From Spirochaetota bacterium (GTDB lineage: Bacteria; Spirochaetota; Spirochaetia; Treponematales; UBA12059): a stretch of 64,000 nt of DNA. Position numbers and translations under genes: made by a program. Numbering within the stretch: the first letter of the stretch is position 1; the number at the start of each line of letters is the position of its first letter. The notes beneath the pieces are model-generated. The model saw only the letters and a program-made list of their open reading frames with translations. It was not told the origin of the DNA and searched no databases. This document shows, in pieces, positions 42,793 through 62,198 of this stretch. The stretch covers positions 1-64,000 of the forward strand of contig JAKPPT010000070.1 of the NCBI GenBank assembly GCA_029547205.1. Direction: 5' to 3'.

Positions 42793-42850
42793 TGATAAGT
42801 GAAGCTCAAGAAACGCCCTGCTAACCGCGGTAACAGTAAAAATATAAAAA

Positions 42851-42872: not shown

Positions 42873-42892
42873 GGTTTGTAGGTGATACGTTT

Positions 42893-43923: not shown

Positions 43924-43950
43924 GTATCGGTAAGCAAAAAGTGGACTTTA
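43924..43950 (-). promoter_or_regulatory. Sigma-28 (FliA) promoter of flaB
   Basis: On the minus strand TAAAGTCC (43950-43943), an 11-base spacer and ACCGATAC (43931-43924). This fits the flagellar consensus TAAAGTTT-N11-GCCGATAA well. It leaves a leader of about 160 bases, which contains a stem with CCCCTTAAGGG and CTAAAGGGG. Confidence 0.85.
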
Positions 43951-43982
43951 GAAAAACAGTTCAATTTTGAAAAAAATTTGTC

Positions 43983-44011
43983 TTGACGCCTTCGACAAAG
44001 CATGGTATGTT
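43983..44011 (+). promoter_or_regulatory. Promoter of tatD
   Basis: TTGACG (43983-43988), a 17-base spacer and TATGTT (44006-44011), about 40 bases upstream of the gene and divergent from the flaB promoter. Confidence 0.7.
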
Positions 44012-44058
44012 AAAAATAACCTATAAAGGCCTACCATCACTCTTTTTGGAAGATAAAT

Positions 44059-44832: not shown

Positions 44833-44880
44833 CATTCAGTGAACAGCTATAAAATTTGATTTGCGCGTTGAAACAAAGCT

Positions 44881-46002
44881 ATGCTGCATCATCCTGTACA
44901 AATTGGAACTTTCACGGTACCAGGTAACATCTTTATTGCGCCTGTAGCAGGCTATTCTGATGCAGCATACCGCTCTATTTGCCTTGAGCTAGGGGCAGAT
45001 TTCTCATTTACAGAGCTTATCAGTTCGGAAGCACTGGTTCGTAACTCAGAAAAAACAGAAATCCTCCTGAAACGTTTTGATAATGAAACCACCTATGCAA
45101 TCCAGCTCTTTGGAAAAAATCCTCAGGTCATGGCCGCTGCTGCTCGATACGTCTATGAACACTATCATCCTGCAATTATCGATATTAATTGTGGCTGCCC
45201 TGTGCCAAAAGTAGTAAAAACGGGTGCTGGTTCAGCACTCATGAGGACACCTGGTACAGCAGCAGATATTGTCAAAGCAATAAAAGACTCGGTACCGATA
45301 CCGGTTACCGTTAAAATGCGGCTTGGCTGGGATGAAAATTCCATAAATTACCTAAATTTTGCTGAAGCAGTAACGAAAGCTGGAGCTGATGCTCTTACTC
45401 TACATGCTCGTACCCGTGCCCGGGGCTACAGTGGCATTGCAGATCGTAGCGCATTTTTTAAGCTTGCGTACCAGGTGTCGGTTCCAGTAATTGCATCAGG
45501 TGATATGTTCACAATCGAAGATGTTATCGAAGTGCTCGGAAATCCTAATCATGGGAAACCTGTGCAGGGCGTAATGATTGCACGCGGGATGATGGGGCGT
45601 CCCTTTTTCTTTAAAGAAATAACAGATACCCTTAAAACAATAGACAAACTTGAAAGTCAAGAAACTAGCCTTCCAGAAAACAATTCTCCGTACCAGGTGT
45701 CGAATTTCCAGGTGTCTAATTTCCAGGTGCCTAATTCTCTAGATTCCAAGTCTCTGTACCAGGTGTTCAACCATGAAGTGTCTAACCATAGGTCGTCAAA
45801 CCATGACGTCATTGCCGTAGCACAAAAACACCTGCTGCTTATGGTTGAACTATACGGAGAAAAACAAGCATGTGTCGAATTTCGCAAGCATATGTGTGCG
45901 TATCTTAAAGGGACGCCTGGTGGTGCAGCATTACGCCAACAAGCAGTTCACTGCGCTTCTCTGCAGGATTATCAGCACATCTTTTCCTTATGGCTGCGCT
46001 GA
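44881..46002 (+). CDS. dusB: tRNA-dihydrouridine synthase (DusB type)
   Basis: A 373-residue FMN enzyme that reduces uridine in tRNA D loops. The barrel motifs are IAPVAGYSDAAYRSI, the catalytic Cys in DINCGCPVPKV near residue 104, TVKMRLGWDE, LHARTRARGYSG and VIASGDMFTIED. Several palindrome copies are read in frame. One gives TPGT in ALMRTPGTAADI, exactly at the conserved DP site after the catalytic loop. One gives YQVS in FFKLAYQVSVPV. A ~45-residue insert at ~261-306 is made of YQVSNF-, FQVSNF- and YQVFNH-like units. The insert lies between the barrel and the helical tRNA-binding domain. Confidence 0.9.
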   Translation: MLHHPVQIGTFTVPGNIFIAPVAGYSDAAYRSICLELGADFSFTELISSEALVRNSEKTEILLKRFDNETTYAIQLFGKNPQVMAAAARYVYEHYHPAIIDINCGCPVPKVVKTGAGSALMRTPGTAADIVKAIKDSVPIPVTVKMRLGWDENSINYLNFAEAVTKAGADALTLHARTRARGYSGIADRSAFFKLAYQVSVPVIASGDMFTIEDVIEVLGNPNHGKPVQGVMIARGMMGRPFFFKEITDTLKTIDKLESQETSLPENNSPYQVSNFQVSNFQVPNSLDSKSLYQVFNHEVSNHRSSNHDVIAVAQKHLLLMVELYGEKQACVEFRKHMCAYLKGTPGGAALRQQAVHCASLQDYQHIFSLWLR

Positions 46003-46084
46003 TTTTTTTTACAAAAAACCCAACTACATACGGAGCATGATTTTAGCACAGCACATCTTTTCCTTATGGCTGCACTGATTTTTT
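45973..46084. repeat. Duplicated 3' end of dus
   Basis: The 35 bases CAGCACATCTTTTCCTTATG... ending GATTTTTT occur at 45973-46007 (last codons of dus) and again at 46049-46084. The second copy supplies the stop codon of the binding-protein gene on the opposite strand, so its C-terminus (SVQP) may be altered. Confidence 0.75.
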
Positions 46085-47350
46085 CCAGTTTATATATTCC
46101 TGCGTAATGCGACTATTGATATCGAATGGTTCTTCTGCTGTAAACCATTCATATATAATCGGAACTATATATTTTGAGAAAAAGCTATCCCACGATTGAG
46201 AAACACCATTAACCATGGCAATCATTTGCTTAGGAGGAGCTTTCCCAAGTAGTTCCTTATAATAAAGAGGAAATATTTTTTCTGTAATGTCAACTATTGC
46301 AGAAAAACCGTTCGCAATACCAAAATCAATTTCATCCAATCGATATAATCTAAGCTGTTCTAGCAATTTTTTTTGTGTATCAAATTGATAAAACCATTTT
46401 ATAAAAACTTCTGCTGCTTCTTTGGATTTTCCATTAGACAAAATTCCTAAAAAGACAGCACTATTGTCTACTGGAATTTTGTTATCATGAGCAAACCAAT
46501 ACGTTATTAAGCTGCTGCGGCGAGATTCATCTAATGCAAGATATTTTTTAGAAGAAATAACCCAGGCATTAGTTTTTTTCAGTGATAACTGCATATCAGC
46601 TGGTATTTGTTCATATTTCTGTTTAAATGCCATAATATTAGAGAAAGTTATCCTGGAATCATCAAACCATGTTTGTAAATAATATAGAGCGGAAGAAAAA
46701 TTAGCATTATTCCAGTGGAGACCATTTTCTTCAGTAAAGCTAACACCAAATGCTTTAATAAAATAATTTAAGGCTTCATCTGACCATAAGGGGTGAAACC
46801 CCATAGCCAGATATTCATTTTTTTGGTTTACGGTTGATGAATTTGATAATTTTTTTAATTCAGGAAGCTGAAGTACAACACCTGGTTCTGTTATAGACTC
46901 ATCAGTTTTCTTTTGCATTATTACCATGGGTATATTGAATGAAACCGGAAGTAATAATTGCTTGTTTTTCATCATTCCCGACTGTAATAATGATTCATAA
47001 AAATTGCTCCGAGAAATACTAAGGGTTGCAAATAAATAACTAATATCATCAAGCTGAGATAGGATTTTGTCTGTAAGAATATTATTCCCTAATATCAATG
47101 AAGGGAATTTTTTTCTTGAATTACTTTCCTGTAACCTATCAAGATTTTCTTCATATATGCAATGAATCTTATAACGTTTATGTTGAACATTAAACTGTTC
47201 AACATAAAATACTGCTTGCGGTATATTGGTGACCATATAAGTTTCTGTTACCGAGGTTGCTTGCTTAATAATAACGAAAACCGATATCACAATGACAGAA
47301 AACAGTAAAGCAATGAGTATGCTTAAAGAATGTTGTTTAATATCTTTCAT
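46064..47350 (-). CDS. Membrane-anchored solute-binding-like protein
   Basis: A 428-residue protein with one N-terminal membrane helix (ILIALLFSVIVISVFVIIKQ). The rest looks like a family 1 extracellular solute-binding protein: LSDEALNYFIKAFG-like helices, NAWVISSKKYL, and a C-terminal EVFIKWFYQFDTQKK region. There is no lipobox Cys. A GAACACCTGGTT variant of the palindrome is read as TEPGVVLQL near residue 160. No transporter genes adjoin. Its C-terminus overlaps a duplicated piece of dus. Confidence 0.6.
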   Translation of the reverse strand: MKDIKQHSLSILIALLFSVIVISVFVIIKQATSVTETYMVTNIPQAVFYVEQFNVQHKRYKIHCIYEENLDRLQESNSRKKFPSLILGNNILTDKILSQLDDISYLFATLSISRSNFYESLLQSGMMKNKQLLLPVSFNIPMVIMQKKTDESITEPGVVLQLPELKKLSNSSTVNQKNEYLAMGFHPLWSDEALNYFIKAFGVSFTEENGLHWNNANFSSALYYLQTWFDDSRITFSNIMAFKQKYEQIPADMQLSLKKTNAWVISSKKYLALDESRRSSLITYWFAHDNKIPVDNSAVFLGILSNGKSKEAAEVFIKWFYQFDTQKKLLEQLRLYRLDEIDFGIANGFSAIVDITEKIFPLYYKELLGKAPPKQMIAMVNGVSQSWDSFFSKYIVPIIYEWFTAEEPFDINSRITQEYINWKKSVQP

Positions 47351-47418
47351 GAATTACTGTCCTTTTTCAAAGAATCATCTTTCATAAAACAAGTTTTTGC
47401 TGTATACTAACAAACGAA

Positions 47419-47904
47419 ATGCAAGTCAAACATCCCGAAGTCTATTCACTCATCGAGTCAATCTCTCAACATTATAGCAGTAATGTTTCAAATCGATTCA
47501 CTCACTCTGTTCTTTCTCTGCTTCCATTAGATTCTGCCTCGTGGACTCAGATAGAGGAACTTACCGAACGAGCTTCACATTACCGGTATCAAGGATATCA
47601 TTTTGATGAACTCTATTCAATGATACTCGCTATGGCAAAATTTATTTCTTTTGCAAGAAAACAAGGTATTCCACTTCTCAAATCGCATGCAGGCTTACAA
47701 TCGTCTAAACTATCATCGCAGGATAAAATTCTGCTCGATATGGTCATTAATAATTTTATTTCCAATCTTAACATTTTAGCAGATTATCTTAACAAGCTGT
47801 TTGTAAAAGTTGTTGAGCTTGATAAAGCGGAAGCAGTTGGACGGCCTCCAGTACTCTTAAAGTTTCCTGAATTAAAAGACATTGGGAAATACTTGTTGGA
47901 ATAG
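47419..47904 (+). CDS. Hypothetical helical protein
   Basis: A 161-residue soluble protein, almost all alpha helix by composition (HYRYQGYHFDELYSMILAMAKFISFARKQG). No known family is recognised and no clear ribosome binding site is seen. It is divergent from the binding-protein gene and is the last host-like gene before the inserted island. Confidence 0.6.
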   Translation: MQVKHPEVYSLIESISQHYSSNVSNRFTHSVLSLLPLDSASWTQIEELTERASHYRYQGYHFDELYSMILAMAKFISFARKQGIPLLKSHAGLQSSKLSSQDKILLDMVINNFISNLNILADYLNKLFVKVVELDKAEAVGRPPVLLKFPELKDIGKYLLE

Positions 47905-47946
47905 AGCATTACAGCCTATTAATCATGTATCAGAGCATGCTGATAC

Positions 47947-48114
47947 AATCAAATACGATGTGTATTTGAAAAAATCCGAACCGATTTCATTAACGGGCGA
48001 GGCGGGCGAAATTCCCCCCGAACCCTCTTCCCGCCCGCCTCGCCCTGAAGCGGAATCGAAAATGCAAACAGCCAAAGAACCTGAAAAAATTTCGACTCGA
48101 ACTTTATTGTAGCC
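47947..48114 (+). pseudogene. Remnant of a serine recombinase N-terminus with a GC-rich hairpin inside
   Basis: The reading KYDVYLKKSEP resembles the first strand of large serine recombinases (KYxxYxRKSxE). It ends in ESKMQTAKEPEKI, which matches CEAQTAKEPGRKI of the recombinase at 50343-50375. Between the two lies GGGCGAGGCGGGCG...CGCCCGCCTCGCCC, a GC-rich stem unlike the host DNA. This is a short, heavily damaged piece, so the call is tentative. Confidence 0.4.
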
Positions 48115-48201
48115 AGAAGCTGGTTTTTCTTATTTTCCTTGATTGATTTTAATTTATTTGTTATCATTATATTGAAAGAAAGGGTTGTTAATGGTATAAT
48201 A

Positions 48202-48432
48202 ATGCGCTATCAAATTATTGAAAATATGGCAAGAGAAAATAACATTGGAGAAAGCATAAAGAAATACCGAACATAGCAGGGCTTGTCGCAGGAAGATTTT
48301 GCCGGAAAATCCGGCATCAAATATGCCACCTTGATTAAAATTGAAAGCGGAGTTATTAAAAAGCTCTCTGTTCTCGTTATGGCTAAAATTGACAAGGCAT
48401 TAGGTGTAAATATTGAGGAGTTAATTAAATAA
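48202..48432 (+). pseudogene. XRE-family regulator with one in-frame TAG
   Basis: The frame gives a 76-residue helix-turn-helix protein like the controller proteins of restriction-modification systems: NIGESIKKYRT-stop-QGLSQEDFAGKSG, then KYATLIKIESG and ALGVNIEELIK. The only damage is a TAG at codon 25, where a residue just before QGLSQEDFA is expected. It ends 4 bases before the endonuclease gene. A GTG or ATG after the stop would lack the first helices. Confidence 0.75.
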
Positions 48433-48436
48433 AACT

Positions 48437-49318
48437 ATGTCGACACTTTGGAATCAAAATCAAGAAAAAGATTTCTTTATTAAATCGTTGGAGTTTGCAA
48501 CACCAGAACAGCTTTTTTATATCACCAAAGATAAAAAGTATTTGGCTTATTGGCCTAAAAATTATGATGGTACAAAAACAACAATGCAAAGTAGGAACTC
48601 CCTGATTGGTTCTTACACAGAAAAATGGGCTACTGATTTATTTAGTGAAACAGCAAAGATAATCGGTGGATATGCTGTACAAGGAGTAATTGCCGAAGAA
48701 ATAGGATTAACAAACCAATCACCAGCAGATGTTGCCATTTGTAAAACAAAAGATGTTATACAACGACCGGAGAATATCTTAATGATTATTGAAGTTAAAA
48801 TGTCTCTGGTTTGGAATTGGGAATTTACGCCAGCAAATAAAAAGCTAGTCTGCATTGGCGATTATAGGACTCATCAGGGCAACCCCGGATTGTTAAGATC
48901 AGACACAATGTTAAAAGCCATCGGTAAAAGTATTAATATTCGGGTTTCAAGTTTTGCCGCCTCAAAAATTCCGATCATTATCCTTGGCAATACACCTGTT
49001 ACTAAAAGTTATTATGAAAAAGTTGATCACTTAAAAAGAAATGGTATTATACAAGGCTTTTGGTCAATAAATCCAAAACCACTAGACGATAATGGAGAAA
49101 ACATTAAATCAACACCTTTTATAGGCTTTTATAGATTTGATACATATGAAGAATTAAGAAAAAACGCAATTAATCTTTTAAAAGAAGAAAGAGAATTTTT
49201 CTCGAGTATGCAAACGCGAAAAAGACTTGGAGAGATTATTGAGATAGCCAATAAAGAACCTACTTATGAAGCGAAAGCACATAAATTTTTGGAATTGTTA
49301 CGTCAAACAAAAGAATAA
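48437..49318 (+). CDS. Type II restriction endonuclease (PD-(D/E)xK)
   Basis: A 293-residue protein with a PD-(D/E)xK nuclease core: SPADVAICK near residue 97, and MIIEVKMSLVW near residue 118. The spacing of about 20 residues is normal. It lies between a controller-like gene and a DNA methyltransferase gene, 6 bases before the latter. The cut site cannot be read from the sequence. Composition is AT-rich like the rest of the island. Confidence 0.75.
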   Translation: MSTLWNQNQEKDFFIKSLEFATPEQLFYITKDKKYLAYWPKNYDGTKTTMQSRNSLIGSYTEKWATDLFSETAKIIGGYAVQGVIAEEIGLTNQSPADVAICKTKDVIQRPENILMIIEVKMSLVWNWEFTPANKKLVCIGDYRTHQGNPGLLRSDTMLKAIGKSINIRVSSFAASKIPIIILGNTPVTKSYYEKVDHLKRNGIIQGFWSINPKPLDDNGENIKSTPFIGFYRFDTYEELRKNAINLLKEEREFFSSMQTRKRLGEIIEIANKEPTYEAKAHKFLELLRQTKE

Positions 49319-49324
49319 ATCACT

Positions 49325-50272
49325 ATGAGAAGACAAAGTTTTTACAATAAAAGAAGAAATGGGACGCAAACAAGTGCGTTTGGCACACCGGGGCGGATAA
49401 ATCATGATTCGTCCAAATTTTACAACAGTAAACTTTATGAGGGGTTAAATAATGGAAAAGATGTTGAGTACGTGGAAAATCAGATTGACACTCAAAATAT
49501 AAATAAAGTTTTTTGTAAAAATAGTGAAGTTATGTCAGAGTTACCGGATAATAGCGTTCATCTAATGGTTACTTCGCCGCCTTACAATGTTGGCAAAGAA
49601 TATGATGAAAATTTATCTCTTAAAGAATATAGAGAGTTATTAAAACGAGTATTCAAAGAAACATACAGAGTTTTAGTTCCAGGTGGTAGACTATGCATAA
49701 ATGTTGCGAATTTGGGCAGAAAGCCCTATTTACCATTACATAGCTATATTATTGAAGATATGCATGATATTGGCTTTTTAATGAGAGGAGAAATTCTTTG
49801 GGATAAAGGAAGTAGCGCTAGCCCTTCAACTGCTTGGGGGACATACTTAAAAGCCAATAATCCGGTGTTGCGGGATATTCACGAATATATTCTTGTTTTT
49901 TGTAAAGATACATTTACTAGATTAAATCCACACAAGAGAAAAAGCACTATTTCAAAAGAGGAATTTTTAGAATTTACAAAAAGCGTTTGGAAATTCCCTG
50001 CAGAGCGAGCCTCAAAAGTAGGACACCCTGCACCGTTTCCGGTTGAACTACCATATCGGCTGATCCAGCTTTATACTTTTGAAGGGGAAGTTGTTCTCGA
50101 TCCTTTTGTTGGGAGTGGAACTACTTGTATCGCTGCATTAAAAACAAATAGGAAATATGTTGCCTATGATATTGATAAAAATTATTGTGATTTAGCAGAC
50201 AGAAGAATAAAACAGTTTTTGCAAGAGCAAATATCGTTATTCGACAAAAAAGAATTTGCCGCCCAAAAGTAA
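49325..50272 (+). CDS. Beta-class DNA methyltransferase (N4-cytosine or N6-adenine)
   Basis: A 315-residue DNA methyltransferase. Catalytic motif VTSPPYNVGKEY is near residue 82, and the SAM motif VVLDPFVGSGTTCIAAL near 260, so the order is that of the beta class. The SPPY form favours N4-cytosine methylation. The target recognition region is in the middle (WDKGSSASPSTAWGTYLKA). It is the cognate partner of the endonuclease just upstream. Decayed recombinase sequence starts 18 bases after its stop. Confidence 0.88.
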   Translation: MRRQSFYNKRRNGTQTSAFGTPGRINHDSSKFYNSKLYEGLNNGKDVEYVENQIDTQNINKVFCKNSEVMSELPDNSVHLMVTSPPYNVGKEYDENLSLKEYRELLKRVFKETYRVLVPGGRLCINVANLGRKPYLPLHSYIIEDMHDIGFLMRGEILWDKGSSASPSTAWGTYLKANNPVLRDIHEYILVFCKDTFTRLNPHKRKSTISKEEFLEFTKSVWKFPAERASKVGHPAPFPVELPYRLIQLYTFEGEVVLDPFVGSGTTCIAALKTNRKYVAYDIDKNYCDLADRRIKQFLQEQISLFDKKEFAAQK

Positions 50273-50290
50273 AATAAGTTATAATTTTCC

Positions 50291-51640
50291 TTGCAGGCTA
50301 TTGCTCGCGAAAAACTTGAAATCGTCGCATCGCTATGCGAAGCGCAAACTGCCAAAGAACCTGGCCGAAAGATTTTCGGAGAAATGTTAGACCGGATGTG
50401 CGCTGGCAAAGCCAGAGGAATTTTAGCTTGGCATCCGGACAGGTTGGCTCGCAATTCTATTGATGGCGGAAAAATCCTTTATCTGCTGGACACAGGGAAA
50501 TTACTTGATTTAGAATTCCTAACTTTCTGGTTTGAAAATACACCGCAGGGGAAATTTATGCTCTCTATTGCTTTTGGACAAAGCAAATACTATGCGAATA
50601 ATTTAAGTGAGAATATCAAGCGGGGACATCTCCCAAAATTGCGAAAAGGAATTTTGCCAGGCTTTACATCGCAAGGCTATTTTATTAATCACCGGACAAA
50701 AGAAATTGATTTAGATAAATAGAGAGCACCATTTATTAGAAAAGTATTTAAACTTTACGCTACCGTCGACTATACTCTAAAAGCCATAAAGCAGTTTTTG
50801 GCAGATAACGGAATAACAAGCTATCGCAACAAACCGCTTTCTGTTTCCTGTGTCTAGCAAACACTCAAAAATCATTTCTACTATGGAGTGTTTAAGTTCA
50901 ACAACGAAGTTTATCAAGGATCTCATGAGCCAATTATTTCCAAGAAACTTTTTGATTCTGTTCAACAAGCAATGAACAAACGGGGCAAGAAAAAGTGAAA
51001 AAGGAAGCACGAATTTGCTTTTTCCGGCTTTATGCGTTGCGGAAATTGCAGCTGTATGATAACTGCCGACAAACAAAAAGGTCATAACTACTACCGATGC
51101 ACCAAGAAAACGCAAAAATGCGAGGAAAAATATTTGAGGGAAGAAAATCTTGTCGAACAGATAAGAGATTTTATTCAAAAAGTTTCTTTGCCTGACGACT
51201 GGGCGAAAAATATGCTTTTAGAGTTAAACAAAGAAAAAGAGCAGCCCAAAAGAAAAAGCGAAATTATTGTTCAAAATCTCAAAAAGCAAAAAATAGAAAT
51301 TGAGCAAAGAATTGAAAAATTATTGGACATCTATATTGTCGGCGAGGCTTTAACTTTTGAAGAATACCAAACCAAGAAACAAAAACTGCTCAATGAAAAA
51401 TTGGATATTGAGCAAAAAATCAGAGATTTTGAACAAATGGGGAATAATCGGCTCGAACCGATGAAAGGAATAGTTTTTGAGGTGAAACAAGCCAAAATTC
51501 TATTATTGCAGAGCGACAATTATCAAATCCGTGAATTTCTAAAAAATGTCGGCTTGAACTTTATTTTGAAAGACAAAAAATTCAATTTTGCGACTAAAAT
51601 CCGGCGGCCGGCGAGCCCTCGCAGAGGGCGAGCCAGCCTC
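50291..51640 (+). pseudogene. Large serine recombinase, broken by three nonsense codons
   Basis: One continuous frame from 50291 to about 51640 is interrupted only by TAG (50720), TAG (50855) and TGA (50996). The pieces are ILAWHPDRLARNSIDGGKILYLL (resolvase domain helix), HFYYGVFKFNNEVYQGSHEPI (recombinase domain), FSGFMRCGNCSCMITADKQKG (zinc ribbon), and a C-terminal coiled coil (KQKIEIEQRIEKLLDI). The catalytic Ser region at the N-terminus is missing. The sequence type is that of recombinases common in candidate-phyla (CPR) bacteria. The frame runs on into tRNA-Ser, which is not coding. Confidence 0.85.
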
Positions 51641-51654
51641 AAAATTTACCAACT

Positions 51655-51741
<87 letters not shown>

Positions 51742-51755
51742 AAAACTGGCTAAAT

Positions 51756-51786
51756 AAAAGGACGCTTTTTAATGAAGCGTCCTTTT
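51756..51786 (-). terminator. Terminator between tRNA-Arg and tRNA-Ser(CGA)
   Basis: AAAAGGACGCTT pairs with AAGCGTCCTTTT, with T residues on both strands, so it can act in both directions. The stem has 12 pairs. Confidence 0.85.
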
Positions 51787-51799
51787 ATCAAACCGTTAC

Positions 51800-51873
51800 T
51801 GAGGCTAAGAGGATTCGAACCTCCGACCTTCAGATCCGCAATCTGAAGCTCTATCCAGCTGAGCTATAGCCTC
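51800..51873 (-). tRNA. tRNA-Arg (anticodon GCG)
   Basis: A 74-base cloverleaf with acceptor GAGGCTA/TAGCCTC and discriminator A, anticodon stem TCAGA/TCTGA with loop TTGCGGA, and T arm GGAGG-TTCGAAT-CCTCT. The anticodon reads GCG rather than the common ACG (inosine) form that decodes CGN. Confidence 0.93.
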
Positions 51874-51882
51874 ATTTCAGTA

Positions 51883-51970
51883 CGGAGAGGGAGGGATTCG
51901 AACCCTCGGTACCCTTTAGGGGCACAACTCCTTAGCAGGGAGCCCGATTCGGCCACTCTCGCACCTCTCC
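51883..51970 (-). tRNA. tRNA-Ser (anticodon GCT)
   Basis: An 88-base type II tRNA with acceptor GGAGAGG/CCTCTCC, anticodon loop CTGCTAA, a long variable arm (TGCCCCTAAAGGGTACC) and T arm GAGGG-TTCGAAT-CCCTC. It decodes AGC/AGU. Confidence 0.95.
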
Positions 51971-52109
51971 AAATATCGTAACTTTACTTATGACACATAT
52001 ACAAACACTATACAATGTAGTTATATCACATTTGTATCAGCTTGTACATGATAACCTATGCCGAATTTCCCTGCAGCTACGCTACAAATCAGCATCACTA
52101 ATACTGTTT

Positions 52110-52194
52110 CGGAGCAGGGGGGATTCGAACCCCCGGTACCTCGCGGTACAACGGTTTTCAAGACCGCCTCCTTAAACCACTCGGACACCGCTCC
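52110..52194 (-). tRNA. tRNA-Ser (anticodon TGA)
   Basis: An 85-base type II tRNA with acceptor GGAGCGG/CTGCTCC and discriminator G, anticodon loop CTTGAAA, a long variable arm and T arm GGGGG-TTCGAAT-CCCCC. It is the first gene of the cluster, next to the promoter. Confidence 0.95.
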
Positions 52195-52208
52195 TTGAAC
52201 GCCGACAT

Positions 52209-52238
52209 ATATTAAAGAAAATAGCATTGATTTGTCAA
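52209..52238 (-). promoter_or_regulatory. Promoter of the tRNA-Ser/Arg cluster
   Basis: On the minus strand TTGACA (52238-52233), an 18-base spacer and TAATAT (52214-52209), about 15 bases before tRNA-Ser(TGA). It is a strong match. Confidence 0.8.
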
Positions 52239-52323
52239 GCTATGTGACTTTTACCTTTTATGGTGTTAATCAATTTAATTGCGTACTTTATATTGCTATG
52301 ATACAGTTATATAAGAGGTTTTA

Positions 52324-53031
52324 ATGATAAAGTCTAAAATTCTCTGTTTATTGCAATTACTAGCGTTCAGTATTATCGCACTCTTATGTATCATGATGGT
52401 TTTGCTATCATCAACAGAACGGAACACCGCCATTAGCAGCAGTCAATTTGTATTGTTAGTAGCAATTGGAATACCGCTTGCAGTTCTGACAAGTCTTTTT
52501 ATAACTTTTTTTACAATTTCTAGAATATTTGCATATAGATTCACCGGGTATCTTTATATTTTTATTTATCTTTTTTCTGTTTTTTTTGCATGGTATTTTT
52601 TAGCTAGATTGCTCCCTCAATTTTCTCGAATTGATATTATCCAGTCTGGTAAACCTCTCTTTGCAATACTTCCAGAGTATAATCAGTGTATTATTACTCT
52701 ATTTGAACTCACGCAGGTATCATTCTTCAAGGCTCTTTTCAGTATTGCATACAGTTCACTGTTTTTTGCTTCCTTTTGGGGAATAACTCGTATTACACCT
52801 TCACGACATCTCATTGGAGCTTTACTAATGCCAGTAATCTTTCTTGCATCACTGTATTTATATGGATTTATCCATTCACCACTTTTTCTACAGTTCATAA
52901 CCGAAACTATTAAACTTAAAATCGAACCAGAATATTTTTCATATGTTTCAGCTTGTATTATTATACTCACTGCACTGGGATTTGATATGCTATTTTCATA
53001 TAAACCAGTAGGAAAGAAGAAAACCGTATGA
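52324..53031 (+). CDS. Polytopic membrane protein of unknown function
   Basis: A 235-residue protein with six or so membrane helices (for example LLQLLAFSIIALLCIMMVLL at the start and YVSACIIILTALGFDMLF near the end). No motif is recognised. AGAGG precedes the ATG. The stop overlaps the start of the next gene by 4 bases (ATGA), so the two products are probably made together and may form one complex. Confidence 0.75.
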   Translation: MIKSKILCLLQLLAFSIIALLCIMMVLLSSTERNTAISSSQFVLLVAIGIPLAVLTSLFITFFTISRIFAYRFTGYLYIFIYLFSVFFAWYFLARLLPQFSRIDIIQSGKPLFAILPEYNQCIITLFELTQVSFFKALFSIAYSSLFFASFWGITRITPSRHLIGALLMPVIFLASLYLYGFIHSPLFLQFITETIKLKIEPEYFSYVSACIIILTALGFDMLFSYKPVGKKKTV

Positions 53032-54692
53032 ACAAAACATCGCTTTCCGGAATACTGTTTCTCATGCTCTTAGTTTTTTTTATTATTGCTGCAGTATGGC
53101 ATGCTGTTAGTTCTATGATATTTATTCTTCCCCGTTATTTCTTTTCATGGGTCTTACTATCAGGTCTAATAAGCCTCTTTACAGTTACACCTGCAATTCT
53201 CCTTGTCGGATCAGCATTTCATGCAGAAAGCATGCCTACAACGAGCAGCTTTCATGATGTTGTTATTCGAGAATTACTTCCCTCATTTATTTTTGCTCTC
53301 ATACTCACTATAGGATATATTTTTATTCTTCCTCCTGTCGAAAATCGTAAAACCTGGTTTGAACAAACCAGCTCAACTTTTAATAACGCAATTAAAAGTG
53401 CTGAAAATGCTTATAAGAATAAAAATTACAATGAAACGTTGCAATATTTAATCATTGCTCGAAGCATCGATCCTAAGAATCCTCAGTATACAAAACTATA
53501 TGACTCGGTAATAGAAACGGTACAATCAAAAATGCAAGCATACAAACCAGAAGACACAATTATACAAAATACGGATAACTGGCAAAACAGCAACAGCCTG
53601 TACCTCGCTGCACTAAAGGCAAAAGAAGCAGGTAAGCTGCTCGATGCCCACTATCTTGCACGACGAGCACTTACATTAAATCCAAACCGCAAAGAAATTC
53701 AGGCGCTCATTACCGAAACATGGAAGCTTATCAATCAGCAGAAGCAAGATCCTAAAGAAGTTGAAGAAGCAGAACTGTTTAATAAAAAAATTGAAGGCTA
53801 TACATACTATGATTCGGGTCGTTTTCTTGAAGCATATCAGCTGTTTTCTGCACTCGCTAAAAAACATGGTGACGATCCTGATATAAAATTATTTCTTTCC
53901 AGAAGCATGGAGCAGCTTAAAACAATAGCTTTTTTCATTGAAGAAGATGTTTCCGCTTTTTTACGTGCTACAGCTGTTCCTTTTTCAGCAAATTTATCAA
54001 CTGATAATATCGTTCTTCGAGTTGTTGCATCTGCAGCAGTATCTTCGTTCGAAGGAGTCTATTTCCGTGATCTTAAAGTACAAATGGAAAAACCTCAGCT
54101 ATATAGTTTTGAAACTCCATTTGCACGACTCAAAGGAAACATACTGACAATACGTGCTGTTGACAGAGAGAATCCCGTTAACCATTGGGAACCTCTCTGG
54201 AAAATTGGAAAGCAGGATCCTGATGGTGTGATTATGAATTTCCCACTAACCGAAGAGCAAGCGGATATTTTGCTGCTCCTTTTTCAGAAACCTCAAAACA
54301 TTCCAGCTTACAAGCTTTGGGACAGTATAAAAGTAGCTGAACGCTACCGTATCAATACTACTGAAATATACCTTGAAGTCAGCAGAAGACTGGCCTATCC
54401 TTTTACTCTTCTTATGGTCATTATTTTTGGTATTGGCCTGGGACTTAGATTCCGAACAACCCAAAACGATAGCTTTTTGATGCAATTTGTTGGTTCCTGC
54501 ATTTTGGTACCAGGTGTGATGTCACCATTGAATATAATTGCCAAAATTGGGTTTAGTGCTGAACGGCTAATCCATCAGTACACGAAAGAAACAACATTCA
54601 TGCTTGCATGGCTAGCTGTGCTGTTATGTACAACTTTTATAGTTATCTTTATTTCAGCAAAAATATCAGCGTTTTTCGTTCGTCACCGATAA
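53028..54692 (+). CDS. Membrane protein with central TPR region
   Basis: A 554-residue protein with about three N-terminal membrane helices (residues ~5-110), a helical TPR-like domain (TFNNAIKSAENAYKNKNYNETLQYLIIARSIDP is a typical unit; a second is near 245), a beta-rich part, and three C-terminal helices (YPFTLLMVIIFGIGLGLRF onward). The last part recalls the LptF/LptG permease end (RLAYPF...GLGLRFR), so it and its overlapping partner could be a diverged envelope lipid export pair. That is only a suggestion. One palindrome copy is read as LVPGV between helices near residue 496. Confidence 0.65.
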   Translation: MNKTSLSGILFLMLLVFFIIAAVWHAVSSMIFILPRYFFSWVLLSGLISLFTVTPAILLVGSAFHAESMPTTSSFHDVVIRELLPSFIFALILTIGYIFILPPVENRKTWFEQTSSTFNNAIKSAENAYKNKNYNETLQYLIIARSIDPKNPQYTKLYDSVIETVQSKMQAYKPEDTIIQNTDNWQNSNSLYLAALKAKEAGKLLDAHYLARRALTLNPNRKEIQALITETWKLINQQKQDPKEVEEAELFNKKIEGYTYYDSGRFLEAYQLFSALAKKHGDDPDIKLFLSRSMEQLKTIAFFIEEDVSAFLRATAVPFSANLSTDNIVLRVVASAAVSSFEGVYFRDLKVQMEKPQLYSFETPFARLKGNILTIRAVDRENPVNHWEPLWKIGKQDPDGVIMNFPLTEEQADILLLLFQKPQNIPAYKLWDSIKVAERYRINTTEIYLEVSRRLAYPFTLLMVIIFGIGLGLRFRTTQNDSFLMQFVGSCILVPGVMSPLNIIAKIGFSAERLIHQYTKETTFMLAWLAVLLCTTFIVIFISAKISAFFVRHR

Positions 54693-54714
54693 ATGTTGCT
54701 TCTTTCGTATCTAT

Positions 54715-56115
54715 TCAATCCTGCGCACGTTCAATACATGCACCTAATCCTTTTAGTCTTTCGACGATATGTTCGTAGCCTCGTTCTATCTGGTAAACAT
54801 TGCGAATACAGCTGGTACCTTCTGCGCACAGTGCTGCAATCACCATTGCCATTCCGGCTCTCACATCTGGTGATACTAATTCGGTTCCATGCAGACGAGC
54901 TGGTCCTGAAACGACAGCCCTATGTGGATCACAGAGTACAATGCGTGCACCCATACCAATGAGCTTATCTACAAAAAACATGCGTGATTCAAACATTTTT
55001 TCGTGAATCAACACAGTGCCTTCAACCTGAGTTGCCACTACCGTCATGATTGATGTCAAATCAGGCGGGAATCCTGGCCATGGTGCATCATCAATTTTTG
55101 GAATTTGTCCGCCCAAATCCGGTACGACGCGCATTACCTGTCCTGGTTTCATAATGAGGTCGAAACCCGTTTCGACACCTGGTACCGAATTAACATTTCT
55201 AGTTGCATTTTCAGCGCTGACAGCACCGCCACCCGTTTCGACACCTGGTACCGCATAAACGGTTGTGGATGAGACACCTTGAGCAGGAGCAATGGTCCAG
55301 CTTATTCCAAGCTTTCCAAAAGCAAGCTTGATCATTCGTAAATCATCAGGATTAACTCCCTGGATTACCAGATCACTTCTTGTAACAGCTCCGAGTCCAA
55401 TAAAGCTTCCCACTTCCATAAAATCAGGACCAATCGAAAAATCGGTACCATGTAATGCTTGCACACCCTCAATTGTGATGATATTTGAACCAATGCCAGC
55501 TATTTTTGCACCCATACTATTGAGCATTTTACATACATCCTGGACATGGGGCTCACTAGCAGCATTTCTTATAACGGTAGTACCCTCTGCAAGTGCTGCA
55601 GCCATAACCGCGTTCTCAGTAGCGGTTACTGATGCTTCATCAAGAAAAATATCAGTACCTTTAAGCTTATTTGTTGTAAATTCAAAAACGCCATCGATTT
55701 CGACCCGTGCACCTAGTGCTTCAAGTGCAAGCAAATGTGTATCAACCCGTCTTCTTCCTATTACATCTCCTCCAGGAGGAGGCAATACCACACAGCCCTT
55801 TCTGGCCAACACTGAACCTGCAAACAATATTGATGCACGAACTTTTGCTGCAAGATCTGCTGGGATTGTAGTAGTGGTAAATTCGTTTGCATGAATCTTC
55901 CATGCGTTACATCCCAGTGGCTCAACATGAGCACCCAATGCTCTACAAATTGCCAGCATAACTCTGACGTCTTCGATGTCGGGAATATTCCTCAGAACGA
56001 CAGGTTCTGCTGATAACAACGCTGCACTGATACAGGGGAGCGCTGCATTCTTATTGCCGCTTATTTTTATGGTTCCCTTTAAGGGATGTCCACCTTCGAT
56101 AATATATTTGTTCAT
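54715..56115 (-). CDS. murA: UDP-N-acetylglucosamine 1-carboxyvinyltransferase
   Basis: A 466-residue enzyme of the first committed step of peptidoglycan synthesis (enolpyruvyl transfer from PEP). The ATG of [20 protein letters not shown] is chosen. The frame continues 126 codons upstream only because it crosses stop-free palindrome repeats. Conserved parts are [16 protein letters not shown], the active-site loop [15 protein letters not shown], and [13 protein letters not shown]. The usual catalytic Cys of the loop is Asp here (GAT at 55765-55767), as in naturally fosfomycin-resistant MurA. A ~35-residue insert near 288-318 carries two VPGVETG units made by palindrome copies. Confidence 0.94.
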
Positions 56116-56154
56116 AGCTGCATCGTATCGAAGGTAAAAACATACGTCAATGGT

Positions 56155-56495
56155 AGGACACCTGGTACCATGTGCCTCAAGTGCCACAGGCTTATTCGGT
56201 ACGGGCACACCTCGGCACAAGGACACTAGGTACCGGTATATGGACACCTGGTACCAGATAGTACCGGGTCGGTATGTGAACACCTGGTACCGGATGATGC
56301 GATACCTCGGTACGGGGACTAGGGCACCAACACTGACAGCTGACACGAAGACACCTAAGGTAGGACACCTGGTACCGTCCAGACATGAGCTGAACAACCG
56401 CCCCGATATAAATTGCGGTAAATTTTGGTACCAGGTGTGCTGATATGTGCTGAACAAACGCCCCGATATAAATTTCGGTACCAGGTGTGACATGA
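56155..56495. repeat. Palindrome cluster between murA and fhs
   Basis: Copies start near 56158, 56245, 56280, 56365, 56427 and 56479, in both orientations, with intermediate pieces such as GACACTAGGTACCGG. Two units share CAACCGCCCCGATATAAATT before GGTACCAGGTGTG. No gene lies between 56116 and 56560. Confidence 0.85.
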
Positions 56496-56502
56496 ATTGT
56501 AT

Positions 56503-56531
56503 TTGACCAATTAAAAAATTAGCCTTACATT
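56503..56531 (+). promoter_or_regulatory. Promoter of fhs
   Basis: TTGACC (56503-56508), a 17-base spacer and TACATT (56526-56531), 30 bases before the start codon and directly to the right of the last palindrome copy. Confidence 0.7.
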
Positions 56532-56560
56532 AAAAGATGAATTGCGACAAGGAGGGTTCT

Positions 56561-58324
56561 ATGAGCATTGCTAAACAAAAACCAGTTCCAAGTGATATCG
56601 AAATTGCACAAAAAGCAGAAATTAAACCAATTGTCTCTATTGCAGAAAACTATGGAATCTGTGATGACTGTATAGATCATTTTGGTAAGTATAAGGCAAA
56701 AGTACGGCTTGAGTTCCTAAAACAAAACCAGGATGCCCCTAAACGGGCAAAATATATCGATGTAACTGCTATATCACCAACACCACTAGGAGAAGGAAAA
56801 ACTACAACAACAGTCGGTCTGACTCAAGGATTAGGATTGCTGGGATATAAAGCAGCCTGTGCCATCCGACAACCTTCAATGGGACCAACATTTGGCATAA
56901 AAGGTGGCGCAGCCGGCGGCGGTTATAGCCAGATAGTACCAATGGAAGATTTTAACCTGCATCTTACTGGCGATATACATGCAGTCTCCGCAGCACACAA
57001 CCTATGTGCAACCGCACTCGATGCGCGCATTTATCATGAGCTTCGTTGGTCTGATGAGTTTTTTGCAAAACAGGGGATGACAAAACTCAATGTTGATCCG
57101 TATAACGTTTTCTGGCGCAGAGTTGTTGATATGAATGATCGGGCATTACGCAATATCATCCTCGGAATCAATGGAGTAGAAAACGGACCGCTCCGTCAAT
57201 CTGGTTTTGATATTGCCGTGGCAAGTGAAGTAATGGCTATCCTCGCATTAGCAAAAGACCTCAGAGACTTACGAGAACGCATCGGAAAAATAATCCTTGC
57301 CCTCGATAAAAAAGGAAACCCAATAACAACAGAAATGCTAGGAGTTGCTGGAGCAATGACTATTTTACTTAAAGATGCTATCAAGCCTAACATTCTTCAG
57401 ACGCTTGAAGAACAGCTTGCTTTCGTCCATGCCGGACCTTTTGCAAACATCGCTCATGGCAATTCATCGATTATTGCAGATCTCGTAGCAACTAAAGTTG
57501 CTGATTATGTCGTCACTGAAAGCGGTTTTGGTGCTGATATGGGGTTTGAAAAATTTGTTGATATCAAGTGCCGCACAAGCAGAATATTCCCCGATGCTGC
57601 GGTTCTCGTTGTTACCGTACGTGCACTCAAAATGCATGGTGGCGGACCAAAGGTTACTCCAGGAAAACCACTCGCAACAGCATATACCGAGGAAAATCTT
57701 GAGCTTGTCAATAAAGGTCTATCAAACATGCTTGCACACCTCGATATCTTGCGAAAATTTGGAATTCCTACCGTGGTTGCAATCAATGCATTTCCTTCTG
57801 ATACTCAACAAGAGTGGGATATTATCCGCAATGCTGCACTTAAAGCTGGAGCAGTAGATGCTGTTGTATCGTATCATTGGGCAGAAGGAGGAGAAGGTGC
57901 TCTCGAACTTGCCAAGGCAGTTGAAAAGGCTACTCAAATACCCAGTAAAGTTATGCCTTTTTACCCGCTCGACCTTTCAATTAAAGAAAAAATCGAACGA
58001 ATTGCTCATGAAATTTACGGTGCAGACCATGTTTCTTACTCTGTTGAAGCAGAAGAAGCTATCGAGCGTTTTTCAAAACTTGGATTTGACAAATTACCAA
58101 TCTGTATGGCAAAGACTCAATACTCGTTATCACATGATCCTAGTCTCAAAGGTGCTCCGATAGGGTTCATTTTCCCGATCAATGATGTGCGGCTTGCAGC
58201 TGGCGCGGGTTTCATCTATCCGCTCTCTGGCGATATAAACACTATGCCAGGCCTTTCGAGTAAACCTGGATATATGGGCATGGATATTGATCCGGATACA
58301 GGGAAAATATCTGGGCTTTCATAA
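56561..58324 (+). CDS. fhs: Formate-tetrahydrofolate ligase
   Basis: A 587-residue enzyme that makes 10-formyl-THF from formate, ATP and THF. The P-loop-like SPTPLGEGKTTTTVGLTQGL is near residue 75. The family sequence continues without gaps (FGIKGGAAGGGYSQIVPMEDFNLHLTGD, RALKMHGGGPKVTPG). The ATG at 56561 follows AAGGAGGG; one eight codons earlier has no such site. No palindrome copy lies within it. In spirochaetes it may serve folate one-carbon supply or reductive acetogenesis. No other Wood-Ljungdahl gene is in the window, so the second is not shown. Confidence 0.96.
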   Translation: MSIAKQKPVPSDIEIAQKAEIKPIVSIAENYGICDDCIDHFGKYKAKVRLEFLKQNQDAPKRAKYIDVTAISPTPLGEGKTTTTVGLTQGLGLLGYKAACAIRQPSMGPTFGIKGGAAGGGYSQIVPMEDFNLHLTGDIHAVSAAHNLCATALDARIYHELRWSDEFFAKQGMTKLNVDPYNVFWRRVVDMNDRALRNIILGINGVENGPLRQSGFDIAVASEVMAILALAKDLRDLRERIGKIILALDKKGNPITTEMLGVAGAMTILLKDAIKPNILQTLEEQLAFVHAGPFANIAHGNSSIIADLVATKVADYVVTESGFGADMGFEKFVDIKCRTSRIFPDAAVLVVTVRALKMHGGGPKVTPGKPLATAYTEENLELVNKGLSNMLAHLDILRKFGIPTVVAINAFPSDTQQEWDIIRNAALKAGAVDAVVSYHWAEGGEGALELAKAVEKATQIPSKVMPFYPLDLSIKEKIERIAHEIYGADHVSYSVEAEEAIERFSKLGFDKLPICMAKTQYSLSHDPSLKGAPIGFIFPINDVRLAAGAGFIYPLSGDINTMPGLSSKPGYMGMDIDPDTGKISGLS

Positions 58325-58766
58325 CCAGAGTTTCCTTAAAATTAGTACCAGTTTAGACACATTACTTCTTCTCAACATATCACCTGCCAGCGAGTGCATC
58401 GACGCTCTGACGAGGGACACCTGGTACTGAATAGTGTTCCGAGCCGCGTTTCCTACCGAGCACTTCCTACCACATTGACACCTGGTACCAAGAGAATTAC
58501 ATCTGGCACCACAATTAGCTTCGGTGGGGCGATTCGAGCGGTAATAAAGAGGCACACCTGGTACCAAAAGAAGCACTTGTACAGTCAACGGAAGCTGACC
58601 AATTTCCGACCGCCCCGTAATAAAAAGCACACCTGGTACCAGGTGAAGTGTGGTACCAGGTGAAGTTCCCTGAGCAGTACCTGGAGAAAAAGATACAGGT
58701 GGCAGTAGCAGCGACAAAGAGCACCAAAGATGCCATAGCAACTTAACTGTTCCTCTGTTTCAGAAC
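58325..58766. repeat. Palindrome cluster between fhs and the TPR gene
   Basis: Copies start near 58419, 58479, 58555 and 58630. At 58630-58670 two abut (ACACCTGGTACCAGGTGAAG then GGTACCAGGTGAAG), showing the full 18-base palindrome form. No gene is visible between the two stop codons of the flanking convergent genes. Confidence 0.85.
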
Positions 58767-61700
58767 TTATTGCGGGAACTTCATATCTGCTTTGATTGGT
58801 TTATCGAGTATGATATCGATATCACGTTTGGGGTGAAGGACAAAATCAAGATTAAAGAAGCCATAATTTTTTTCGTCGGACCGAATCATTGTTTTTTGAT
58901 CACGGGTCAATGAGTCAAATAAGCGAGCTGACTCGGTGAACTGCACCATTGCATCTGCACGTTTTGAGCTGTCACCCATTACGTTTGCAATACGGAGATA
59001 GGCAGCTCCCAGGTTATTACGAGCTGCAACAAGCAGGCGAACTATTTCTTCATGTGATGGACGCTGTTGAGGATCAGGATTGGGTATTAAATCAAGTTCA
59101 GTCTGAAGCCTGTCGACAAGAGCTTTGTAATAGCTCTGTGCAGCAAAATAGTCTCCTCGCATGTATAGTGTATTTCCAAGAGCCATTAAAAGATAAGGGG
59201 TTGGTTTGCTATTCAAACTAGCCCGATAAAAATATTCTAATGCTGTTTTATAATCATCGAGCGTTTCTTTTTTATAATAAATATATCCACGATGGTAATC
59301 CATCTCTGGTGTAACATATCCATTATCCTCTGCTTTTGCATACAGAGCAACAGCAGCTGTGTAGTTTTCTGGTTCATAAAAATAAACATCTCCAAGCAAT
59401 GCATATGCTTTGCCAAATTCTTTTGACTTAGGAAATCTTAATTCTTCTAGTGATTGTTCATACCGTTTTATGCACTGCTCAAGTTTTTTCATAGCATCCA
59501 GATCTCGTTTACCCTTTAGATATAGTTCACTTAAGCGAATAAGGTCTAACAAATATCGTTTTGTCTGCCTATTATCCAAACCTCTCTCGCCATCAGTTTT
59601 TTCAAAAGTAAAAACTGAATTTTCAAGAGCATTTAATTCTTTATCATACAGCATCGATTTTCTAAACCATCGTGCAATGGCAGAATGAGCTTCTGGCACA
59701 TATGGTTCATTTTTTACCGCTTTTGTGAGTAAGTCCTGCACCTGATCGAGGATTTCATGTTCCATAAGGTATTCTGCAAGTTCAGCAAGTGTTGCGGCAG
59801 AAAATTTGCTTTTTTTGTTACCGAGATAATACTTTGCATACGGTGCGATTTCTTTTACATTATCCTTGCCAGTAACTTTTTCCGAACGAATGAGATATAA
59901 GAGCATGAGTTCAAGATACTGATCAGTTTTACCATATTTTTCCATTAACGTGGCAAGCTGAAGTCTTGCTTTGTTATAGATATTTGCTATCTCTTCTGAT
60001 GCTGGTGGTTTATACTGCTGTTCAAGATAGTATGCCCAATTAAGATAATTTCTCACAAGAAAGAGCAGCGCATTCTTATGAAAATAATTCCATTTTACTA
60101 TGCGCTCCATCACTTCTTTTTCTGCATGTGCAAAATCATACTGCAGTTCTGATTTCATCCGTGCATAATCAAGTGTTCCTTTAATATCTTTAGGCCAGTA
60201 ATCATCGCTCAGCAATGTCCAGTAAATCTTTTCCGCCAATACATACTGCCGCTTTTCAATATACTTTTCTGCATATTTATAAAACCATGGCTTCATTCGC
60301 CACTCATTGGTAGCATCAATAAAGAATTGAAGAGATTCAGGATATTTGTCTTTTATTATTTGATTGTAACCTCGTGTATACAATATTTGCGCATGTATCG
60401 GTCTGTAAATAAAATTATAACCAATAAAGCCAAGGATTCCTAAGCCAATAGCTGCAAGAACAAGTATCTGCAGAACTGGTAATATTGAGTGAATAAAAAT
60501 ATACCTAAAGCTATTTTTTTCTTCTTCAAACGCAGCACCGCGTCTCTTATCGTAACCGCGCGGAACTTCGATTGGCCGGCGCAAGATTTTACTTGCAAGC
60601 TTTGCTGCATCATATGCGCTAGCGCCATCAACGAGCATCTGTATGAGCTCTTTTTGATGGGTCATAGTGCCATGATTGTTTGCAATTATATCTTCTACAC
60701 AGAGCCTTACATTGAGCGGATACGATAGCAGCGTTTCCTGTAGCTCATCAACTTGATCTTCTGTTAACTCAATTGCTACCGGGCTATCATCGACAGGTTT
60801 TTGTATCTCAAGCGGAGCTACAAATGCTGATGTGCCTGGTTTTTCTTGCTTTTTGGGTTCAAAACCTGGAATAGTAAAGGATTCATCCCAACTGCTGTCG
60901 ATTGAAAAGTTTTCAGGCTCGAGTGTCCCTTTTTCAAGTGAAGCAAGCTCTTGATCTAATTCATCGGGTGCGTGAAATGCTTCGGTTCCGATCTCAGGGA
61001 CTTCAATTGATTCTGAACTTGATGATTGTTCCCCAATAGTTGTTTCAGTACTTGAGGTTTCATTTCCAAACGAGAGGCTCTCAAGATCATGAATATCTTC
61101 CATTGAAGGCAAATCAGCAAAATCAGACAATCCTGATGGGGGTTCAACCGTTTCTATGCCCTGCTCGGTACCAGGTGTCGTTTCTGGTGTCGTTTCTTCA
61201 ATATTTGTTGCGGCGGTACCAGGTGTCAAATCCTCCAAATCACCAGAGGTGAAATCTGAAAAATCAGTACCGAACTCAGCAATTGATGATGTATCTGGCG
61301 CAGCTTTTCTATCTGCTCTGTCCACTGGTTTTTGAGATTCCGAAGTAATCCCGTTTTCTTCAGGAAAATCAGATAGAGTTGACATTTCAGACTGGAAATT
61401 AAATCCTTCGAGTTCAGTATCTAAATTGGTACCAGGTTTCGTTTCTTCGATTCCAGCATTCTTCGCTGAACTGACTGTTTCAAAATCTATGCCCAACTCG
61501 GTACCAGGTGTTGGTTCGCTGGGTGTTGTTTCGAAAAATCCTGGTTCCAGTGGTTCAATATCGGTACCAGGTGTCAAATCAGGTGTCAACTCGCCAGGTA
61601 TCATCTCGGATAATGATTCACCGGCTGCTGTACCAGGTGTCGAATCAGGTGCCGCCTCGCTGGTCGTTATATCAGGTATCGCCTCGCTAGTCATTATTTC

Positions 61701-62198
61701 AGGTGTCGTTTCCGTACCTGTCGTTTCCGTACCAGGTGTCGATCCGGGTATCGATCCGATATCGGACATCATTTCTTCTGTACCAGGTGTAGTATCTGAA
61801 ATTAATTCTTCTGTCGCAAAGCTTGCTTCGGGTTCTAAGAGTTTTGCGAGGTCATCGTCAATGCCTTCTGTGGTATCGACAGGTGCACTCAAGGTATCGA
61901 GATTCATGCTTTTGAGAAAGCTGGTATAATCCTCATCGGGCGATGGAGCATCAAGTAAAGACTCAAGTGATGGTTCTTGTTCCTCGATAGGGTTCTCGGT
62001 ACCAGGTGTTTCAGTGCTCTGTGTTGATACTATAAATCTATTCGCATCAAGTGCAGAAGGTTTCCCTTCATCAATTGCTGATGGCGGAGGCAACTCTCTT
62101 ACGTATGGTTGTTCCCCCCATTTTCCGACGGTTTCCTGCTCACCGCCTAATTTGCGAAGATTTTTTTGGAGTTCTGCTAGACGCTTTAATGTTGGCAT
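58767..62198 (-). CDS. Large TPR membrane protein with TPGT-rich N-terminal region
   Basis: An 1143-residue protein. Residues ~30-470 are an acidic, low-complexity region rich in Glu, Thr, Ser and Pro. About a dozen TPGTE/TPGTD/TPGTA units sit in it, each written by a palindrome copy. A folded segment (~490-560) comes next, then one membrane helix (ILVLAAIGLGILGFIGYNF near 580). The rest is TPR-like helical repeats facing the periplasm (QFFIDATNEWRMKPWFYKYAEKY, ALEYFYRASLNSKPTPYLLMALGN). No enzyme motif. Its likely role is scaffolding in the envelope. The copy-rich region lies on the cytosolic side. Confidence 0.8.
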   Translation of the reverse strand: MPTLKRLAELQKNLRKLGGEQETVGKWGEQPYVRELPPPSAIDEGKPSALDANRFIVSTQSTETPGTENPIEEQEPSLESLLDAPSPDEDYTSFLKSMNLDTLSAPVDTTEGIDDDLAKLLEPEASFATEELISDTTPGTEEMMSDIGSIPGSTPGTETTGTETTPEIMTSEAIPDITTSEAAPDSTPGTAAGESLSEMIPGELTPDLTPGTDIEPLEPGFFETTPSEPTPGTELGIDFETVSSAKNAGIEETKPGTNLDTELEGFNFQSEMSTLSDFPEENGITSESQKPVDRADRKAAPDTSSIAEFGTDFSDFTSGDLEDLTPGTAATNIEETTPETTPGTEQGIETVEPPSGLSDFADLPSMEDIHDLESLSFGNETSSTETTIGEQSSSSESIEVPEIGTEAFHAPDELDQELASLEKGTLEPENFSIDSSWDESFTIPGFEPKKQEKPGTSAFVAPLEIQKPVDDSPVAIELTEDQVDELQETLLSYPLNVRLCVEDIIANNHGTMTHQKELIQMLVDGASAYDAAKLASKILRRPIEVPRGYDKRRGAAFEEEKNSFRYIFIHSILPVLQILVLAAIGLGILGFIGYNFIYRPIHAQILYTRGYNQIIKDKYPESLQFFIDATNEWRMKPWFYKYAEKYIEKRQYVLAEKIYWTLLSDDYWPKDIKGTLDYARMKSELQYDFAHAEKEVMERIVKWNYFHKNALLFLVRNYLNWAYYLEQQYKPPASEEIANIYNKARLQLATLMEKYGKTDQYLELMLLYLIRSEKVTGKDNVKEIAPYAKYYLGNKKSKFSAATLAELAEYLMEHEILDQVQDLLTKAVKNEPYVPEAHSAIARWFRKSMLYDKELNALENSVFTFEKTDGERGLDNRQTKRYLLDLIRLSELYLKGKRDLDAMKKLEQCIKRYEQSLEELRFPKSKEFGKAYALLGDVYFYEPENYTAAVALYAKAEDNGYVTPEMDYHRGYIYYKKETLDDYKTALEYFYRASLNSKPTPYLLMALGNTLYMRGDYFAAQSYYKALVDRLQTELDLIPNPDPQQRPSHEEIVRLLVAARNNLGAAYLRIANVMGDSSKRADAMVQFTESARLFDSLTRDQKTMIRSDEKNYGFFNLDFVLHPKRDIDIILDKPIKADMKFPQ

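Follow-up and report, generated by a model that had tools for sequence, protein, structure and literature searches.

The 64,000-nucleotide stretch of DNA analysed here (the window) lies on C45, an 81.9-kb contig of a spirochaete draft genome of 2.65 Mb. At 58767..62198 on the minus strand it carries the gene for the periplasmic flagellar collar protein FlcA (1143 aa; NCBIfam FlcA_CTERM, E = 1.4e-155), orthologues of which were present in 50 of the 59 genomes searched. The FlcA C-terminal domain model passed its NCBIfam cut-off (519 bits vs 300), and the FlcA_NTERM motif model gave a weak match to residues 1 to 40 (21.6 bits vs a cut-off of 28). The protein comprises a 39-aa N-terminal motif, an acidic disordered linker, a hydrophobic segment near residues 570 to 595 that is probably transmembrane, and a TPR half. 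Disorder in the N-terminal region, suggested in the initial annotation of this ORF, is indicated for residues 31 to 470 by the charge-hydropathy rule and by composition.

The N-terminal 470 residues contain all nine [T/K]PGT units of FlcA, eight TPGT and one KPGT (residues 64, 137, 154, 187, 209, 230, 254, 325, and 341), encoded by nine in-frame copies of the DNA word ACACCTGGTAC(C) at 61167..62009 on the minus strand. The codons for TPGT are in-frame ACACCTGGTAC[C/A/G] and those for KPGT are AAACCTGGTACC. The initial annotation had counted about a dozen TPGT units; the units are real, and their number is nine, accompanied by degenerate PGT, PGE, and TGT relics. As it had also proposed, each unit matches a DNA copy (nine of nine are spelled with the one word) and some of the intervening text is duplicated, as seen in the 27-bp direct repeats at 61644-61670 and 61671-61697, which are 85% identical.

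The conserved unit of the repeat is 11 to 13 bp long, with sharp edges and flanks that are not strongly conserved. The window has 64 copies of its core, CACCTGGTAC, vs 0.03 expected from shuffles. The draft genome, sampled in stretches, has 85 copies, 72 of which are on C45 at 17.7 to 72.6 kb, spanning 55 kb and all within 35 kb of a small domesticated transposase gene on that contig, a RAYT (REP-associated tyrosine transposase) gene. Our first idea, a genome-wide repeat, was dropped because of this concentration of 72/85 copies on a single contig. The window portion of the ACACCTGGTACC array (unstranded) extends over 17676..62009 and continues past the window to contig position 72635; relatives have zero to two copies of CACCTGGTACCA each. 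ORFs of 150 aa or more contain 37 of the 72 array copies. An intergenic word cluster at 58417..58664 (unstranded) includes the only occurrence on the contig of the 16-bp palindrome CACCTGGTACCAGGTG, at 58630 (58630-58645). At 17676-18460, intergenic copies are embedded in longer near-duplicates with poly-C runs (ccccccccatattGACACCTGGTACGcggtacgcaaat) and form a sub-family distinguished by its flanks. Word-rich sequence is also found in an ORF extension at 56116-56493 (an apparent 126-aa N-terminal extension of MurA) and in a small 140-aa ORF at 58319-58741, both of which are probably not translated.

The single spelling of the FlcA units, the absence of TPGT from the orthologues (0/26), and the presence of the same word throughout nearby intergenic DNA indicate that the units derive from the DNA repeat, as the annotation had surmised. 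Orthologues with TPGT encoded by other codons were looked for, and TPGT was found in none of the ~26, leaving the idea unrefuted. Being a translated regional DNA repeat, the units do not constitute a new protein domain. The proposal that the N-terminal half of FlcA had been built up from palindrome insertions, on the other hand, was for the most part not supported. The word is a half-site, the full palindrome being present only once, and some words were gained without any change in length. Moreover, orthologue linkers are of similar length and make-up, likewise acidic and S/T/P-rich: the region before the conserved anchor measures 309 to 591 aa (mean 405) in ~26 orthologues, two truncated ORFs left out, vs 470 aa in this FlcA, and the distance between two conserved blocks is 327 residues here vs 217 to 271 in seven relatives, an excess of ~80 aa and not ~440. 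In an alignment that is loose across the linker, the columns without orthologue residues contain none (0/9) of the units. The repeat thus seems to have lengthened an old linker by perhaps 80 residues and not to have created it; the acidic disordered linker itself is, judging from the orthologue sequences, ancestral.

Better examples than FlcA of protein made from the repeat are MurA, NqrC, and the linker of the dihydrouridine synthase Dus. MurA (54715..56115, minus strand), encoded by a single-copy gene, carries two VPGVETG units in a 40-aa insert, the words being at 55175 and 55241. In an alignment with seven orthologues the segments beside this insert are ~64 to 78% and 74 to 87% identical, and in a structure model the insert forms a low-confidence loop between two strands (pLDDT ~30). 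NqrC is 366 aa long vs about 205 to 250 in orthologues and has two TPGT-rich inserts. Dus (44881..46002, plus strand) has TPGT at residue 123 and YQV at residue 196, both in ungapped alignment with nine orthologues, plus two YQV units located in a linker insertion of ~46 aa. Sua5/YrdC (23253..24494, plus strand) has three TPGT units in two segments without counterpart in orthologues. The SLT transglycosylase (25161..27416, minus strand) carries one TPGT and one VPGV, both in variable loops, and single VPGV units are present in an Hsp70-like protein (27555..29342, minus strand) and in an LptF/G-like protein (53028..54692, plus strand). The DUF1848 protein adjoining the RAYT gene (38807..39841, minus strand) has two YQV readings in its C-terminal third.

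Altogether, C45 has 30 exact copies of the word in nine homologue-supported genes, read as TPGT (21), VPGV (5), or YQV (4), i.e., in three of the six possible readings, and in these nine proteins TPGT has the same DNA spelling every time. Since copies within one gene are not independent, each gene and reading was counted once, and by this count 9 of 11 were Pro-Gly readings (p = 0.0014). The word-bearing neighbor genes look mostly essential.

The RAYT gene inside the array (39987..40514, minus strand) encodes a 175-aa protein (Pfam Y1_Tnp, E = 3.1e-16) with the HUH motif HVH and the tyrosine in FRYIAKNPV. The combination of HVH with YIAKNPVTANLV, a variant of the NP(L/V)(R/K)xG-type motif, places it in the RAYT/TnpAREP family. 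Its best PDB match is E. coli TnpArep (4er8, E = 5.6e-8), and Pfam gives Y1_Tnp only over the 175 aa, with no extra HTH/DnaA_C-type domain. The genome has five full Y1_Tnp genes and a truncated sixth on C61; the other four proteins are 42 to 46% identical to the C45 RAYT. Besides the C45 gene, arrays are borne by RAYTs on C82 (78.3-78.8 kb) and at two sites on C63 (C63a, 167.2-167.7 kb; C63b, 309.0-309.5 kb). Three of these four pass the NCBIfam REP_Tyr_transpos cut-off of 80 bits (C45, 94.7; C82, 87.0; C63a, 82.9), and the fourth is just under it (C63b, 79.1).

Each of these four paralogues is paired with a dialect of its own, confined within tens of kilobases. The dialect AAACCTGGCACC surrounds the RAYT at C82:78.5 kb, the C82 word ACCTGGCACC having 64 copies mostly at 60.9 to 87.8 kb. 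On C63, the median position of GGGACAGACC is 166.8 kb, with a RAYT at 167.4 kb, and that of AGAGTGTCCC is 309.8 kb, with a RAYT at 309.2 kb, so that both medians are ≤0.6 kb from their RAYTs. In the RAYT tree the C45 and C82 proteins are sisters (support 97/91), both with an ACCTGGYACC-type word, and the remaining RAYTs form another clade with GGGACA-type words. Inverted flanking copies of the own word are present at the C63a, C63b, and C82 RAYTs; the C45 RAYT has no clear inverted copy downstream. Within the contig, significant centering of an array around its RAYT was seen only for the two C63 arrays, not for C45 (p = 0.32) or C82 (p = 0.07), and the argument rests on confinement within the genome. 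An array was also predicted around the fifth RAYT (C132:142.9-143.4 kb, 246 aa as called) and was not found, which means that a RAYT gene alone is not sufficient; the truncated copy on C61 was likewise without an array.

A further palindrome, TGCATGCA, was observed ~50 to 130 bp upstream of the start codon in all four array-bearing RAYTs (C45, ~40.6 kb; C82, ~78.9 kb; C63, ~167.7 and ~309.55 kb) and might serve as an operator or belong to the element itself. The C63 dialect GGGACAGACC also has 14 copies on C69 at 38 to 118 kb, a region in which no RAYT turned up and which may hold an older or displaced array. Separately, CAATCATTTC/TCATTTCTAAC occur 22 to 23 times within 20 kb at C63:240-260 kb (L072), again with no RAYT there, in a pattern resembling a CRISPR or another tandem array.

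Comparable arrays were detected in the family relatives. In a sample of 20 RAYT stretches and 14 control stretches from these genomes, the top overrepresented 10-mer scored higher near RAYTs (Mann-Whitney, p = 0.0004). A GGGACAG-type array, usually GGGACAGAGC, was present in 15/20 RAYT stretches by our own count, two weak cases included, vs 2/14 controls, and one of the two positive controls shares its contig with an array. In one genome (G014), 55 of 66 GGGGACAGAGCT words are no more than 30 kb from one of its five RAYTs vs 5.4 expected. A scan of genome contigs for related loci returned a single locus, L161 from Spirochaetes bacterium ADurb.Bin215, and an GGGACAGAGG array was present there. 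Words in relatives lie mostly within ORFs (18/20 in L169, 21/25 in L161), in all frames. Between G008 and G014, which are 82% identical (L164/L169), 13/14 sites are unchanged one way and 13/18 the other way, compared to 22% of background 10-mers and 71% identity in the word flanks. A second species pair shows the same conservation trend at a few sites, and a third, closer pair was uninformative. The species-specific words are mostly in gap-free alignments, with up to six mismatches. Neither the conservation of the words nor their gap-free gain is explained by plain insertion, and this is the strangest part of the data.

A 2010 report on Thauera and three marine gammaproteobacteria described REPs as forming preferentially near the RAYT (PMC2817692), as was also noted in Marinomonas MWYL1 (PMC8266576). 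As in these REPtrons, the repeat family here belongs to a Y1 HUH transposase and is concentrated near its gene; such regions reach up to ~200 kb (PMC2817692, PMC8266576). Unlike REPtron repeats, which are hairpin REPs (GTAG tagged in the well-studied cases) and overwhelmingly extragenic, the repeat described here is a short, largely intragenic 11- to 13-mer with several dialects per genome. By the canonical definition (a GTAG-tagged 20- to 40-bp extragenic hairpin), ACACCTGGTAC(C) is not a REP, as it has no tag and 37/72 copies lie in ORFs. A second likeness is to TIRYTs and their TIRtrons, which are described together with intragenic REPs in PMC3733652, and to TnpAREP subclass 2.1 (PMC6006769), in which a RAYT-like gene has GGGGWSAS-type terminal inverted repeats on both sides and these can give rise to small repeat families. 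GGGGACAG fits the GGGGWSAS motif, to which the C63 RAYTs and most relatives conform through the C63 words and the relatives' GGGGACAGAGC, whereas the C45 word GGTACCAGGTGTC and the C82 word GGTGCCAGGTTTC lack it. Local intragenic arrays are not mentioned in the accessible portion of the TIRYT descriptions (PMC3733652). For subclass 2.1, PMC6006769 reports no REP-like repeats nearby and an HTH/DnaA_C-type extra domain, which the C45 RAYT does not have.

In-frame repeat DNA within functional proteins is also a feature of Rickettsia palindromic elements and other intragenic REPs (Opitutus, R. conorii; PMC3733652). The Rickettsia elements are, however, palindromes of greater length, and no transposase is associated with the related CGTC repeats; the present word has a probable local source gene and was in part acquired without gaps. 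In-frame REPs are known inside tnpAREP genes of subclass 2.4 (PMC6006769), a similar case of a repeat tolerated in frame within a coding gene, but there the host is the transposase gene itself and here unrelated neighbor genes. A literature search that covered few subscription papers returned no report of such arrays in spirochaetes. RAYT-proximal REPs, TIR-type RAYTs, and intragenic REPs are thus known separately; what is new is the mainly intragenic, local, and dialect-specific combination.

On these sequence grounds, the TPGT units are probably the translation of a regional array belonging to the RAYT at 39987-40514, generated by RAYT-driven local copying together with selection on the protein reading. 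We infer both that the RAYT is the maker of the copies and how it makes them. As an HUH single-strand nuclease, it would repeatedly copy or paste the terminal word cognate to it into single-stranded DNA in the vicinity, in some cases adding a larger insert and in others overwriting ~12 bases, and local duplication would yield further copies. Purifying selection, suggested by the frame bias, would then retain chiefly those copies whose translation, TPGT or VPGV, gives a flexible Pro-Gly turn within a loop or linker. In FlcA, the old acidic linker would have offered a tolerant target within reach of the RAYT.

A serious rival, if in our estimation a somewhat unlikely one, is that the word is a selected DNA site bound by the RAYT or a partner near its own gene, for example in local DNA processing or chromosome organization, which arises by mutation and is kept like uptake or matS-type sites, the protein reading being a tolerated by-product. 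The sharp bounds of the unit at 11 to 13 bp between flanks that are not strongly conserved, the several gains without indels, and the mostly intragenic position of the words in relatives, in all frames, are all in keeping with such a site. So is the identity of 13/14 sites between L164 and L169 (flanks, 71%; background, 0.22), which would not be expected of decaying copies and to that extent counts against copying, fitting a selected site equally. Yet some gains require three to six changes in 10 bases next to conserved flanks, MurA, NqrC, Sua5, and Dus have words in true insertions, and local duplications are evident. A mixture of site selection and copying is possible.

Selection at the protein level, with TPGT having a role in FlcA and NqrC (e.g., in a linker or as a site of modification) and multiplying as a peptide repeat, could account for the uniform frame in both proteins (9/9 and 10/10, respectively). 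We regard it as very improbable given that essentially one of 256 synonymous spellings is used, that the identical word also lies between genes and yields VPGV or YQV in unrelated proteins, and that no orthologue has TPGT. Still less probable is an assembly or binning artefact in which C45 would be foreign or chimeric. The near confinement of the word to C45 in a draft of 151 contigs might suggest it, but C45 carries the sole FlcA and MurA of a 99.6% complete genome, both matching family relatives well, has a G+C content of 0.40, equal to that of other contigs, and is paralleled by the other dialects on C82, on C63, and in other genomes. A binning error as the source of C45 was rejected on these grounds.

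Local copying by the RAYT under selection on the protein reading hence remains our preferred account. Its generalization is possible, though doubtful enough to be put forward only tentatively: spirochaete RAYTs may write or maintain their cognate word over tens of kilobases, overwriting ~12 coding bases without indels, so that array and transposase would codiverge into regional dialects and neighboring essential proteins would permanently carry the translated word.

These observations bear on what RAYTs and their repeats do and on why they are so long-lived. With several dialect-distinct RAYT-word pairs and a clear spatial range within one genome, source, range, and specificity can be read from the sequence. 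Copying and site selection can be tested against each other directly, given the gains without gaps and the almost complete conservation of words between two species, and the words in MurA, NqrC, Sua5, Dus, and FlcA give a direct view of how protein structure filters a mobile or selected DNA word.
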